A stretch of 50,574 bases of DNA from Porticoccaceae bacterium (lineage in GTDB: Bacteria; Pseudomonadota; Gammaproteobacteria; Pseudomonadales; Porticoccaceae). Of this stretch, positions 15,691 to 21,503 are shown piece by piece; positions within the stretch are counted from its first letter, which is position 1; each line of letters begins with the position of its first letter. Made by a program: the position numbers and the translations under genes. The notes under the pieces were generated by a model that was not told the DNA's origin, made no database searches, and worked only from the letters and a program-made list of their open reading frames with translations. The stretch spans positions 1 to 50,574 of the forward strand of contig JABJEX010000053.1 in the NCBI GenBank assembly GCA_018663035.1, in the 5' to 3' direction.

Positions 15691-15770
15691 GCTTAATTAG
15701 TTGCTAAAGAGTCTTTTAATGCAGCCTTAACCCTGTATTATCCAACTCAAAACCTATGGCTGTTAGAACG

Positions 15771-16700
15771 ATGTCTCGAAAACTTCCTTCACTAAAAGCT
15801 CTGCGAACCTTTGAAGCCGCCGCGCGTCTTTTAAGCTTTAGCAGAGCGGCTGACGAGCTTTTTGTTACCCATGGCGCTGTTAGCCAGCAAATTAAACTAC
15901 TGGAAGAATATTTTGGTCAGCCTCTTTTTGTTCGCTCCCATGGTAGGGTTAGTCTCACGGGGGCTGGAGAAGAGCTGTTGCCGGTGATTGGGGAAAGTTT
16001 AGATCGCCTGGAATCCGTCAGTTCTCATCTTAGGCTAAACCGAGACACTGAGATACTCACTGTCAATTTAACAACAACCTTCGCTGCCCATTGGCTACTA
16101 CCAAGACTTAACGACTTTCAAGCGCGCCACCCAGAAATATCGGTGCGCCTGTCGCCGACACCATCACTGCCGACCAAGTTGGGCAAAGAGGCCGATGTCA
16201 GTATTCGCTGGGGCGGCGTGACGGTCGCAGATGTGGTGACCGAGCAGCTTATTAGTGTCGATAGCTTTGCCGCCTGCGCACCCTCTCTGGTCAATGGCGA
16301 GCATCCTCTGCGTGAACCAGCTGATCTGGCCAACCACAATCTGATTCATGATGATAACGGCGAGGCCTGGAGAACAGTTCTTGAGCAGCTAAACGTTGCT
16401 GATCTGAGCACTGGCGGTGGTGTTTATTATGCCGACCCCGGTTTGGCACTACAGGTTGCGGTGGAGGGGCGAGGTGTCATAGTTGCGGGAAGCATACTGG
16501 CAGCTAAGGATCTTGACGCCGGACGCTTAGTCATACCATTTAACTGTATTATCCCCTATCGTAAGAGCTATCACTTCTACTATCCGAGGCAGGCTTTGGC
16601 ACAGCGAAAAGTGCGCCTTTTTAGGGACTGGATTCAGGATCAGGCGGCCAGTTTTCAGAGTATTCCTGCCGACTACAGCAAGTATTTGGTTGGGTCTTAA
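15771..16700 (+). CDS. LysR-family regulator, GcvA-like
   Basis: DNA-binding regulator of about 309 residues. The helix-turn-helix is at the N terminus (LPSLKALRTFEAAARLLSFSRAADELFVTHGAVSQQI), and the substrate-binding domain at about 95-300 contains LTVNLTTTFAAHWLLPRL and an FxACAPSL stretch. Both parts closely follow E. coli GcvA, whose start MS-(R/K)-LP is reproduced by the ATG at 15771. An ATG five codons earlier (15756) is in frame but has no better ribosome site. It is divergent from the ECF sigma gene and directly upstream of the aminotransferase-BKACE pair, which makes those genes its likely targets. The effector is unknown; GcvA relatives often sense amino acids. Confidence 0.9.
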   Translation: MSRKLPSLKALRTFEAAARLLSFSRAADELFVTHGAVSQQIKLLEEYFGQPLFVRSHGRVSLTGAGEELLPVIGESLDRLESVSSHLRLNRDTEILTVNLTTTFAAHWLLPRLNDFQARHPEISVRLSPTPSLPTKLGKEADVSIRWGGVTVADVVTEQLISVDSFAACAPSLVNGEHPLREPADLANHNLIHDDNGEAWRTVLEQLNVADLSTGGGVYYADPGLALQVAVEGRGVIVAGSILAAKDLDAGRLVIPFNCIIPYRKSYHFYYPRQALAQRKVRLFRDWIQDQAASFQSIPADYSKYLVGS

Positions 16701-16702
16701 TT

Positions 16703-16721
16703 CTGTTAGATCCGCTAACAG
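16703..16721. other. Small inverted repeat between LysR gene and aminotransferase
   Basis: Perfect seven-base arms CTGTTAG and CTAACAG around the loop ATCCG, just after the LysR stop codon. There is no T-run. It could be an operator or a weak mRNA 3-prime structure. The rest of this 108-base gap has no clear element. Confidence 0.4.
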
Positions 16722-16808
16722 CATGTAGCAAAAAAACTCCTTTGTCCCTGGGGCTATTGCAGGCGTAAGCTGCCGAATCACCTCAACCTTGATGTAGAAT
16801 TTTAACTC

Positions 16809-18158
16809 ATGCTGCAGTCTGATAGCCGTGTTTTTCACCGTATTATTCAGGGCCAATTGCCAGTCGCAGAGAGAGGCGACGGCGTTTATATTATTGATAA
16901 TCAGGGCCATCGTTATCTCGATGCCAGTGGGGGTGCAGCAGTGTCCTGCCTCGGCCATTCCCATCCGCGAGTGATTGAGGCGATAAAGCAGCAGTTGGAT
17001 AAACTGCCCTTTGCGCACACCTCATTTTTTACCTCTGAATCCAGCGAAAAGCTGGCGGATTTTCTGGTGCAGAATTCTCCGCAAGGGCTGGACAGAGTGT
17101 ATTTTGTCTCTGGAGGCTCAGAGGCGGTAGAGGCTGCGCTAAAGATGGCTCGCCAGTATTTTGTTGAGGGCGGTGAGCCCCAAAGGTGCAAGTTTATTGC
17201 CCGCCGTCAGAGCTATCATGGCAATACCCTAGGCGCGCTGGCTGTAGGCGGTAATCAGTGGCGGCGACAACCGTTCGAGCCTTTGTTGGCTGAGGTTGAG
17301 CATATTAGCCCCTGTTACGCCTACAGAGATCAGCGCATGGACGAGACGGCTGCAGACTATGGTCTGAGAATCGCCAATGAGTTAGAAGCTGCCATTCAGC
17401 GGCTGGGCGCAGATAGAGTTATTGGGTTTATTGCCGAGCCAGTTGTAGGTGCCACTGGAGGCGTGCTGTTGCCTGTTGAGGGCTATTTTAAGCGCATTCG
17501 TGAAATCTGCGACCGTTACGGCATTTTGCTGATTCTCGATGAGGTGATGTGTGGCATGGGCAGAACCGGCTTGCTATTTGCCTGTGAGCAGGAATCTGTC
17601 CGTCCCGACATAGTGACTGTTGCCAAAGGTCTGGCCGCGGGCTATCAGCCCATAGGTGCCACCCTCTGTTCTAATGCGATTTACGACCGTATTAAACAGG
17701 GGTCTGGTTTTTTTCAGCACGGGCATACCTATATCGGCCATGCCACCGCCTGTGCCGCAGGATTGGCAGTGCAGCAGACCATTCAAGAAGAGGGTTTGCT
17801 GGATAATGTCCGCGCCATGGGAGACCTACTCGCTAATTCGCTCAACCAAAGGTTTGCCGAACATCCCAATGTTGGTGATATTCGAGTTCGCGGGCTGTTT
17901 GCGGGCGTAGAACTGGTGGCAGATCGAGCCAGCAAAAAACCATTGCCTAGCTCCTTTGCCATTCATACACTGATCAAACGCCATGCCATGGCTCTTGGGC
18001 TCGCCTGTTATCCGGGGGGAGGCACAGTCGATGGCCTAAATGGCAACCATGTACTGCTGGCGCCACCCTACATTGTTAACCATCGCCATATAGCTGAAAT
18101 AACTGATAAGTTAGGTGGTGCAATAGATGCTGCCCTACAGGAGGTTGGAGTTTTATGA
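16809..18158 (+). CDS. Class III pyridoxal-phosphate aminotransferase
   Basis: Omega-type (class III) aminotransferase of 449 residues. Landmarks are the N-terminal YLDASGGAAVSCLGHSHP, the phosphate-binding VSGGSEAVEAALKMAR (about 99-114), the PLP-contacting LILDEVMCGMGRTG and the Schiff-base lysine in TVAKGLAAGYQPIGA (about residue 274). Relatives act on omega-amino acids, beta-amino acids or diamines with pyruvate or 2-oxoglutarate. The overlap (ATGA) with a BKACE gene suggests it forms a beta-keto acid, that is, it uses a beta-amino acid; this is inference. The ATG has no recognisable ribosome site, and a TAGAAT hexamer ends nine bases before it, so a leaderless transcript is possible. Confidence 0.9.
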   Translation: MLQSDSRVFHRIIQGQLPVAERGDGVYIIDNQGHRYLDASGGAAVSCLGHSHPRVIEAIKQQLDKLPFAHTSFFTSESSEKLADFLVQNSPQGLDRVYFVSGGSEAVEAALKMARQYFVEGGEPQRCKFIARRQSYHGNTLGALAVGGNQWRRQPFEPLLAEVEHISPCYAYRDQRMDETAADYGLRIANELEAAIQRLGADRVIGFIAEPVVGATGGVLLPVEGYFKRIREICDRYGILLILDEVMCGMGRTGLLFACEQESVRPDIVTVAKGLAAGYQPIGATLCSNAIYDRIKQGSGFFQHGHTYIGHATACAAGLAVQQTIQEEGLLDNVRAMGDLLANSLNQRFAEHPNVGDIRVRGLFAGVELVADRASKKPLPSSFAIHTLIKRHAMALGLACYPGGGTVDGLNGNHVLLAPPYIVNHRHIAEITDKLGGAIDAALQEVGVL

Positions 18159-18982
18159 CAGATCAGCTGAGCCCAATAATAATCGCAGTAGCCCCAAATG
18201 GCGCGCGCAAGCAGAAAACCGACCATCCGGCACTGCCCCTAACCTCAGTAGAGCTAGCTCAGACGGCCGTAGCCTGTCGCGATGCTGGTGCGAGCATGAT
18301 TCATCTGCATGTGCGCGATGCTCAGGGTAACCACTCTCTGGATGTCGAGGCCTATAGAGAGGCTACATCAGCGGTGCACAGGGCTGTGGGTTCGGAGATG
18401 ATTATTCAGGTCACTACTGAGGCTGTAGGTATCTATACCGTGGATCAGCAGATGCAGGTGGTAAGAGAGCTTAAACCTGAGGCGGTATCTCTGGCGATAA
18501 GAGAAGTCTGTGCGGGAGCAGAGGACGAAAGCAGGGCAGCTGAGTTTTTTGCATGGTTGTGGCGAGAGTCTATAAGCCCGCAGTTTATTCTGTATTCAGT
18601 GGAGGATGTGCTGCGTTTTGAGGCACTGCGTCGGCGCGGTGTGATCCCTGGCGATTTGGTCTCAGTGCTCTACGTGTTGGGTCGTTACAGCGGGACAGGC
18701 GCCTCATCAGCGGCAGAGCTGCTACCCATGCTGAGCGCCACAGAGTCTCAAGTCGTCTGGTCGGTCTGTGCCTTTGGTGCCACGGAGGCAAATTGTATGC
18801 TCGCGGCCGCTGAGCAGGGTGGGCACGCAAGAGTGGGATTTGAAAATAATCTGCAGTTAGCTAATGGTGAGGTCGCGATTGACAACGCTGCACTGGTCTC
18901 GGCCCTAGCCGAAGGGTTACCTAGTAAAGGCCGCAAGCCAGCTTCAGGTGCCCAGGCAAGGTTGCTTTTGGGTATGTATTGA
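18155..18982 (+). CDS. Beta-keto acid cleavage enzyme (BKACE, DUF849 family)
   Basis: Zinc-dependent TIM-barrel enzyme whose family condenses a beta-keto acid with acetyl-CoA and releases acetoacetate plus a new acyl-CoA; the type member Kce acts in lysine fermentation. The 275 residues include the substrate and zinc motifs NGARKQK, SMIHLHVRDAQGNHS (zinc histidines of HLH at about 48 and 50) and GHARVGFENNL (about 225-235), whose glutamate is the third zinc ligand. It overlaps the aminotransferase by four bases. The family is functionally diverse, so the actual substrate is open. The upstream transaminase points to an amino-substituted precursor. Confidence 0.9.
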   Translation: MTDQLSPIIIAVAPNGARKQKTDHPALPLTSVELAQTAVACRDAGASMIHLHVRDAQGNHSLDVEAYREATSAVHRAVGSEMIIQVTTEAVGIYTVDQQMQVVRELKPEAVSLAIREVCAGAEDESRAAEFFAWLWRESISPQFILYSVEDVLRFEALRRRGVIPGDLVSVLYVLGRYSGTGASSAAELLPMLSATESQVVWSVCAFGATEANCMLAAAEQGGHARVGFENNLQLANGEVAIDNAALVSALAEGLPSKGRKPASGAQARLLLGMY

Positions 18983-19014
18983 GGTTTCATAGGCCCTTAA
19001 TGGGAGGGGTAAAT

Positions 19015-19095
19015 ATGGATCTTGTTGGCCATACTTCCATTAGTCGTTTTTTCGACACCGACAATCAAAAATTTAAAATGGAGAGTATGCAATGA
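19015..19095 (+). CDS. 26-residue upstream ORF coupled to the TonB receptor
   Basis: A small ORF in the 109-base gap ahead of the receptor. Its ATG at 19015 has a strong GGGAGGGG ribosome site (19002-19009) five bases away, and its TGA stop overlaps the receptor ATG (ATGA at 19092-19095). The peptide begins MDLVGHTSISRFFDTD and has no hydrophobic segment or run of one amino acid. The layout fits a translated leader that couples or attenuates receptor synthesis. The receptor also has its own GGAGAG site, so chance is not excluded. Confidence 0.5.
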   Translation: MDLVGHTSISRFFDTDNQKFKMESMQ

Positions 19096-21503
19096 ATTAT
19101 TTTAAGAAAGCCTCGTTAATAGCGGTGGCTGTTTCCGCGGTGGTTGCCTCGGCGCAACCAGCATTTGCTCAGGGTGGAGAGTCCGCTGAGCTGGAAGAAG
19201 TAGTAGTAATGGGCAGCAGAAGCAACAAGCCTAGATCTGCAACTGATTCGACGGTTCCTGTCGATGTGTTTTCAGAGGCTGAACTATCAGCATTCGGTAA
19301 CCAGGCAGATATCACTGATACATTGAAGGCTTTAGTACCTTCTTACACTGCTACGCCAGCTACAGGTGACGGCAGTGCCTTTATCCGTCCTACTTCTCTG
19401 CGTGGCATGGCACCTGACCAGGCACTGGTATTGGTGAATGGCAAGCGTCGTCACCGTTCGGCTCTGGTGCAGTTTTTTGCCCCAGCAGCAGGTAATGGTG
19501 CCCATGGTGTTGATGTGGCAATGATTCCAGGTATTGCTCTTAAAAATATTGAAGTTCTGCGCGATGGTGCTGCAGCTCAGTACGGTTCTGACGCTATTGC
19601 TGGCGTAATGAATCTGCAATTAAAAGACTCTGCTGAGGGCGGTTCGCTGCAGGTTCAGCACGGTGAGTTTTTTGAAGGTGAGCAGTCCACAAGAGTTGCA
19701 GCTAACGGCGGTTTTGCTCTGGGTGACGATGGCTTCTTGAATGTAAGCTTTGAAAGCGTTGATAACGACGCCCTGTCACGCGGTATTCAGCGTCCAGTTG
19801 GCCAGGGTCTGATTGATGCAGGCGTGCCCAATGTAGGTGCTGATTCACCCTTCGGTGATGCTCCATTTGTACAGACCTGGGGTCGTCCAGAAACCAGCGG
19901 TGATCGCCTGTTCTTCAACGCTGGTGTCACAGATCCAAATACTGGCGTAGAAGTCTATGCCCACGGTGGTTATGCAGAGACTGATGGTCGCTATCGTTTC
20001 TTCTATCGTGCTGGTTATGATCAGGATTGTTCAACTGCACATGGTACGATTCAGTCGCTTTGTCAGGATGCTAACTGGGTGCCTGGTACTCTGCGTCAGG
20101 GTTACACGCCCTACCTAGACGGCGCTCAGACTGATATCTCGCTGGTGGGTGGTATTCGCGGCGATATGGGTAATGGTTACTCCTACGATATCAGCATGGG
20201 TCGAGGTTCGAACGAACTGCGTTATATCCTTAACAACACAACAGCACCAAGCCTAGGTGTTGCCAGTGATGGTAGCTTCCAGCGCGACTTCATTATGGGT
20301 GGCTACGATCAAGAAGAAGTTAACTTCAACGCCGATTTCAACAAGACTCTAAGCGCCGATATGAATCTGGCGTTTGGTGCTGAGTGGCGTGAAGAAACAT
20401 TTACTACAGTGCCTGGTGAGCAATCGGCCATCGACGGTAACACCAGTGGTATGAGCAGTGTTAAGCCTGCTGATGCCGGCTCTTTCTCGAGAGACAACGT
20501 GGCACTTTATGTAGATTTAGAGCATGACGTGAGCGACGATCTATTGATGCAGTACGCGGTTCGTTATGAGGACTTCTCTGACTTTGGTAACACTGCCAAC
20601 GGTAAGATTGCTGGTCGTTACACTGTCAATGATACGCTGACTCTGCGTGGTTCTATGTCTACTGGCTTCCACGCACCTACTCCAGGTCAGGCCAATGTAA
20701 GTACCGTAATTACTACATTTGACGGTACCACTGGTCTGCAGGTTGAAGAGGGTCTGGTTCGTCCAACCAGTGAAGCAGCTCTAGCTGTTGGTGGCGCTCC
20801 TTTGAAAGAAGAAGAGTCGTTCAACATTAGCCTGGGTCTGACCACTGAGCTGGGCGATAACACTACCCTGACTTTCGACATGTATCATGTTGCAGTTGAT
20901 GATCGTATCTACCGCACCGGCGACATCCCCAATGGCTCGGGTGGTTCTGTTTCCTTCTATACCAACGCGTTGGATGTAGAACATCAGGGCTTTGATTTGG
21001 TGCTGTCTTCTTCATTCGAACTGATGGCTGGCATGGACACAACCGCTAGCCTGGCGTTTAACCACAATACTATCGAAGTGACTGGACAGAAGACTATTAA
21101 CGGTGTTGCACCGGTAAGAGACTCACTGGTTGAAGATATTGAGAACAACTACCCAGAGAATCGTTGGGTACTGAATACGCTGACTAATATCAACGACAAG
21201 ATGAGCCTGATGGCACGACTGAACTTCTATGGTGAGCACTATGATGAGCGCGGAACCATTGGTGCTGAGTCTGACCCATCTGCACTTATCGATAGCATTG
21301 TCTATCTAGATATTGAGCTGGGCTATGATGTCACTGATAATCTGCGACTCACTGCCGGTGGCTCTAATATCCTTGACGAATATGTCGATGAGATTGATGC
21401 GCCCTATGCGAACCGTATGAGTGTTGGTCTGCCTTACCCAAGACGTACTGCAGCCAACTACGAAGGTGGTTCTTGGTACCTGCGAGCTAACTACAGCTTC
21501 TAA
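19092..21503 (+). CDS. TonB-dependent outer-membrane receptor
   Basis: Energised outer-membrane transporter of 803 residues. A Sec signal peptide ends near AQPAFA-Q (residue 26), and the following ELEEVVVMGSR is a TonB-box region. The plug domain (about 50-165) has LRGMAPDQALVLVNGKRRHRSA and IEVLRDGAAAQYGSDAIAGVMNLQLKD. A long beta-barrel ends in the aromatic YLRANYSF. The ligand cannot be read from the sequence. Neighbours (acidic amino acid symporter, prolidase, asparaginase-like protein, aminotransferase-BKACE) point to peptides or another nitrogen compound rather than iron, which is inference. No tonB or exbBD is adjacent. Confidence 0.95.
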   Translation: MNYFKKASLIAVAVSAVVASAQPAFAQGGESAELEEVVVMGSRSNKPRSATDSTVPVDVFSEAELSAFGNQADITDTLKALVPSYTATPATGDGSAFIRPTSLRGMAPDQALVLVNGKRRHRSALVQFFAPAAGNGAHGVDVAMIPGIALKNIEVLRDGAAAQYGSDAIAGVMNLQLKDSAEGGSLQVQHGEFFEGEQSTRVAANGGFALGDDGFLNVSFESVDNDALSRGIQRPVGQGLIDAGVPNVGADSPFGDAPFVQTWGRPETSGDRLFFNAGVTDPNTGVEVYAHGGYAETDGRYRFFYRAGYDQDCSTAHGTIQSLCQDANWVPGTLRQGYTPYLDGAQTDISLVGGIRGDMGNGYSYDISMGRGSNELRYILNNTTAPSLGVASDGSFQRDFIMGGYDQEEVNFNADFNKTLSADMNLAFGAEWREETFTTVPGEQSAIDGNTSGMSSVKPADAGSFSRDNVALYVDLEHDVSDDLLMQYAVRYEDFSDFGNTANGKIAGRYTVNDTLTLRGSMSTGFHAPTPGQANVSTVITTFDGTTGLQVEEGLVRPTSEAALAVGGAPLKEEESFNISLGLTTELGDNTTLTFDMYHVAVDDRIYRTGDIPNGSGGSVSFYTNALDVEHQGFDLVLSSSFELMAGMDTTASLAFNHNTIEVTGQKTINGVAPVRDSLVEDIENNYPENRWVLNTLTNINDKMSLMARLNFYGEHYDERGTIGAESDPSALIDSIVYLDIELGYDVTDNLRLTAGGSNILDEYVDEIDAPYANRMSVGLPYPRRTAANYEGGSWYLRANYSF

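Follow-up and report, generated by a model that had tools for sequence, protein, structure and literature searches.

A possible lineage-specific leader reading frame, and a predicted RNA helix over the ribosome site of the TonB-dependent receptor gene that it adjoins, in a SAR92-type marine bacterium

In a stretch of Porticoccaceae DNA of 50,574 nucleotides (nt) (contig JABJEX010000053.1; "the window" in what follows), the gene for a TonB-dependent receptor is immediately preceded by an open reading frame (ORF) of 26 codons, which may be a leader ORF, specific to this lineage, whose translation is coupled to that of the receptor through RNA unfolding. Two features, each of them rare in this genome, coincide only here: a strong Shine-Dalgarno (SD) sequence ahead of the small ORF, and a receptor ribosome site that is predicted to be closed. 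The predicted closure is made by the leader's own codons; systems described as coupled by RNA unfolding have this arrangement. We infer that the small ORF is translated and that receptor synthesis depends on it; the codon usage of the ORF being equivocal, the probability of this reading is put at about 0.5.

The small ORF and the closed receptor start

The small ORF lies on the forward strand, as do all the features described below. It runs from an ATG at 19015 to a TGA at 19093-19095, encodes MDLVGHTSISRFFDTDNQKFKMESMQ, and ends on the receptor gene: its stop codon and the receptor ATG (19092-19094) overlap as ATGA (19092-19095). Frame, coordinates and stop are just as the preliminary description of this DNA had them. 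(The frame can also be read from two starts further upstream, giving 31 codons from an ATG at 19000 and 38 codons from a TTG at 18979.) The SD sequence of the small ORF, GGGAGGGG at 19002-19009, pairs with the anti-SD at -10.7 kcal/mol, a value equalled or exceeded at 5 of 160 sampled gene starts and at 17 of the 6436 ATG triplets on both strands, which bears out the earlier claim of a very strong ribosome site. Small ORFs of 15-60 codons, with ATG or GTG starts, that end at a gene start are not uncommon in themselves (28/160 genes), and gene starts beginning with ATGA, GTGA or TTGA are still more frequent (48/160), but only at the receptor does such an ORF come with so strong an SD sequence. 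The three others with an SD sequence of -5 kcal/mol or better have frames that end 1 nt past the next start, and are probably the ends of upstream genes. (A technical note: the 160 gene starts are the calls of a simple script applied to the window and to 12 other stretches of the genome; the script favors starts with good SD sequences, which makes the SD comparison conservative.) Among 12 Plug-domain receptors of the same genome, whose starts were picked by their SD sequences and in two cases (L110 and L119) were apparently assigned internally, this is the only one whose start coincides with the end of a small ORF.

The receptor's own ribosome site is predicted to be held in a lock helix of 12 base pairs with a single bulge. 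Its 5' arm, CATACTTCCATT (19030-19041), is made by codons 6-9 of the small ORF; its 3' arm, AATGGAGAGTATG (19077-19089), contains the receptor SD sequence GGAG (19080-19083), with G19083 bulged, and further pairs extend up to the AUG. Averaged over the receptor SD sequence and start codon, the probability of being unpaired is 0.11. Only two of 161 gene starts (median 0.44) have a lower value, and none of 12 orthologous starts does, the other 11 lying at 0.41-0.72. Only 1 of 500 shuffles of the 94 bases upstream gives so low a value, which is stable to the choice of context (80-250 nt) and of temperature (10, 20 and 37 C). The only orthologue with a closed receptor start is also the only one with a leader ORF that has a strong SD sequence. 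The start of the small ORF is of average openness (0.46). Holding open a 28-nt footprint, as a stand-in for a ribosome on the small ORF, at any position from 19009-19036 through 19033-19060 is predicted to raise the openness of the receptor start to 0.58-0.61, which is the level of its relatives; footprints beginning further downstream, at 19039, 19045 and 19051, yield 0.22, 0.11 and 0.18, respectively.

These predictions suggest how coupling might work. In the mRNA of the operon, codons 6-9 of the small ORF would pair with the receptor SD sequence and the bases before its AUG, keeping 30S subunits off. Ribosomes loading at 19002-19009 would translate the small ORF, melt the helix and halt at the UGA within AUGA, whereupon either a fresh 30S subunit would load or the terminating ribosome would restart on the overlapping AUG. 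Receptor output would track translation of the leader, and the peptide itself would probably have no role.

A number of observations weigh against this interpretation. 1) The total energy of folding computed for 18980-19130 does not stand out (z -1.10), and the duplex energy of the two arms is modestly unusual, being reached by 71 of 2000 shuffles. 2) With no more than 60 nt of upstream context, too little to take in the 5' arm, the receptor start comes out as open in the prediction (0.46). 3) The SD sequence of the small ORF is itself partly paired, with 18993-18998, in the predicted fold. 4) Codon usage gives an equivocal answer: a score as high as that of the ORF is reached by 22 of 2000 shuffles, but also by 208 of 732 stop-free intergenic windows, and only 31 of 223 pieces of real genes score as low. 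(A first comparison, in which the ORF scored above all of 111 out-of-frame pieces, used a null that was judged too easy, and is not relied upon.) 5) The tests were picked after the sequence had been seen. 6) The frame is not found in the six relatives that share the operon, as taken up next.

The gap in related genomes

Orthologues of the receptor were drawn from 56 relatives, from 50 genomes of the genus and from a single scan of public genomes that yielded 26 loci, of which 24 provided receptor starts (L059 and L060 are partial, and were left out). In six of these relatives the gene for a beta-keto acid cleavage enzyme (BKACE) lies directly upstream of the receptor, as it does in the window, with a readable gap of 125-168 nt. 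The small frame is present in none of the six (0/6): the corresponding frame is open for 6-15 codons only, and lacks a start codon, so that no selection on the frame can be demonstrated. Nor does the peptide have a homologue among the 49 other genomes of the genus, save for one match at E 0.45. Conservation in relatives was the check that the preliminary description had set for itself, and it has failed. That description's proposal of translational coupling is nonetheless supported by a predicted helix of which it made no mention, and which, with its 5' arm inside the ORF, would lock the receptor site. Judged against what is generally expected of a coupled leader ORF, the stop and start overlap, the downstream site is closed, according to the predicted fold, by structure that includes the upstream frame, and conservation, which is supportive rather than defining, is lacking.

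The ATGA overlap is no evidence of coupling by itself. It comes with the receptor start: 22 of the 24 other orthologues begin with ATGA (23 of 25 when this one is counted), and any frame that happens to be open there must end on it. Frames of 17-29 codons do so in 3 of the 24 others (L045, L047 and L052), none of them with a visible SD sequence in the 14 bases inspected.

Is the small ORF, then, an accident? A serious rival explanation, to which we give substantial though lesser weight, holds that it is an untranslated or functionless frame in a fast-changing gap, at the edge of a block of genes that has been replaced or is diverging fast, that its SD-like purine tract is shared with relatives for some other reason, and that the helix is fortuitous. 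The absence of the frame and of peptide homologues, and the ready supply of ATGA by the receptor start, are what this explanation would lead one to expect, and G-rich purine tracts do occupy about the same place in all six relatives. Against it stands the coincidence, confined to this locus, of the strong SD sequence with the closed receptor start.

What the six relatives do share, after the purine tract, is a hairpin with a 6-bp stem and a 9-nt loop in the gap between BKACE and receptor (at 3894-3946 of L036 and in the same gap of L037, L057, L038, L040 and L044). Its stems are GACGAA/TTCGTC, GGCGAA/TTCGCC and GGTGAA/TTCACC; pairing is formed in 36 of 36 cells of the alignment, two of the pairs have changed in both partners, and the covariation exceeds that of slid controls, albeit in six sequences only, which are closely related. 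A genus-wide search with a model of this hairpin gives one strong match in each of the six source genomes, no other strong match, and eight further matches at E 0.06-0.94. The model has no match in the genome from which the window comes, and the window examined alone presents nothing beyond chance at the gap. In the loci searched, no Rfam family reaches its gathering score for the relatives' hairpin; the sole match in a search of six relative loci, RF02502 in L008, is below that score. A conserved leader peptide starting with GTG was considered for these relatives and rejected: a GTG is present at the hairpin in five of the six, but the frames end at differing places and the sixth has none, so that the hairpin better explains the conservation. 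(The more distant L042 is a seventh genome with BKACE next to the receptor, which there starts with ATGG; the gap upstream of its position 2130 holds, by eye, a different hairpin, TTGTCAT-GACGCTTGTA-ATGACAA.)

A divergent block upstream

The small ORF occupies a 109-nt gap that is also one edge of a divergent block (15756-18982) of three genes: LysR, a class III aminotransferase and BKACE (18155-18982; Pfam PF05853). The three are 60-71% identical to their counterparts in two relatives, as against 74-95% for the other genes that are covered over most of their length; between the two relatives, the same three are 77-86% identical. Misassembly of the contig is an unlikely cause, since identity is normal for the genes on either flank, which both relatives have in the same order. 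In the protein tree of the block, the window falls outside five relatives (84/89), while in that of the receptor it joins its nearest relatives (100/99). Forcing the window together with its nearest relatives for the block is not rejected, however (AU p 0.097), and unrooted DNA trees of the two blocks have the same branching and different branch lengths. Allelic replacement of the block is accordingly possible but unproven, the alternative being faster change in place. Among 112 genomes of the family, none offers a closer source for BKACE, the best other match being 71% identical.

These observations invite a conjecture, which we consider rather doubtful: that control of the receptor has been swapped. 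An ancestral hairpin in the gap, kept in the six relatives, would have been removed when the LysR-aminotransferase-BKACE block changed, and its place would have been taken by a new leader ORF that brought a lock helix with it, tying receptor synthesis to translation of the newborn ORF. If coupling of the small ORF to the receptor is real, then the border of a diverged gene block is a place where translational coupling can arise rapidly, and the locus neatly exemplifies a short ORF that serves only to open the ribosome site of the next gene, in one lineage whose close relatives do without it.

Known systems and the operon

Coupling by RNA unfolding is a familiar type of control, of which the present instance is found in one genome only. 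In the systems described in two accounts (PMC12548453, PMC6728339), a structure made with part of an upstream frame covers the downstream ribosome site, and is opened by translation of that frame; the former also describes short ORFs that may serve solely to bring ribosomes to the gene that follows. The small ORF resembles these systems in the predicted origin of the site-covering structure from the upstream frame and in its start/stop overlap; it departs from them in that, at 26 codons, it encodes no known product and is not conserved.

The small ORF also recalls uof of E. coli, a frame of about 28 codons that is translationally coupled to fur. In both cases a short ORF lies directly upstream of its presumptive target and has a promoter, or a promoter-like site, within it: the fur promoter is placed inside uof (PMC6191717), and the small ORF contains a Sigma-70-like match, TCGACA-16-TAAAAT (19052-19079; 10/12 match). 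The cases differ in three ways: the target is a receptor rather than a regulator, the present locus has no known small RNA, and the ORF is not conserved. If the match were an internal promoter that drives the receptor separately, the small ORF would be off the main receptor transcript. This we think improbable: one match was found where shuffles predict 0.3 by chance, and a transcript starting near 19086, as the position of the match implies, would lose the receptor GGAG.

Still more improbable, to the point of being barely credible, is a nascent-peptide sensor or attenuator. One parallel is the CruR upstream ORF of the bp2923-bfrG-bp2921 operon in Bordetella pertussis, where the gene under control likewise encodes a TonB-dependent transporter (PMC9426467). 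CruR is depicted there as a conserved DUF2946 protein of more than 140 residues that has CXXC and RAPP motifs and acts through stalling and Rho termination; none of these features is seen here. On inspection, the peptide has no CXXC, no RAPP or RAGP and no run of one amino acid; it matches nothing in NCBIfam at E 0.001 (it was not put to Pfam) and is not conserved. An amino-acid attenuation leader would require a run of regulatory codons and a terminator, and the ORF has no such run, nor is there a terminator-like site within 18700-19200. No Rfam family, riboswitch or leader, matches anywhere in the window at gathering score. The leader-peptide control that the preliminary description had put forward is consequently unsupported, as is its suggestion of stoichiometric coupling, the 26-residue product having no recognizable function.

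The receptor itself (19092-21503) is a protein of 803 amino acids with Plug and beta-barrel domains (Pfam PF07715 and PF00593). The gene run is LysR, class III aminotransferase, BKACE, receptor, a dicarboxylate-type symporter, an Xaa-Pro dipeptidase-like M24 protein and an asparaginase-like protein, and the host is a marine SAR92-type bacterium, with SAR92-clade and Porticoccaceae genomes as its nearest named relatives. Upstream contexts of the receptor differ within the one genus: in L032, L008, L034, L039, L041 and L043 it follows hisF, the aminotransferase and BKACE genes being absent from that place. In L009 (G006:C77:3211-3822) all that appears of the orthologue is a C-terminal stretch interrupted by in-frame stops, apparently the remains of a decayed copy.
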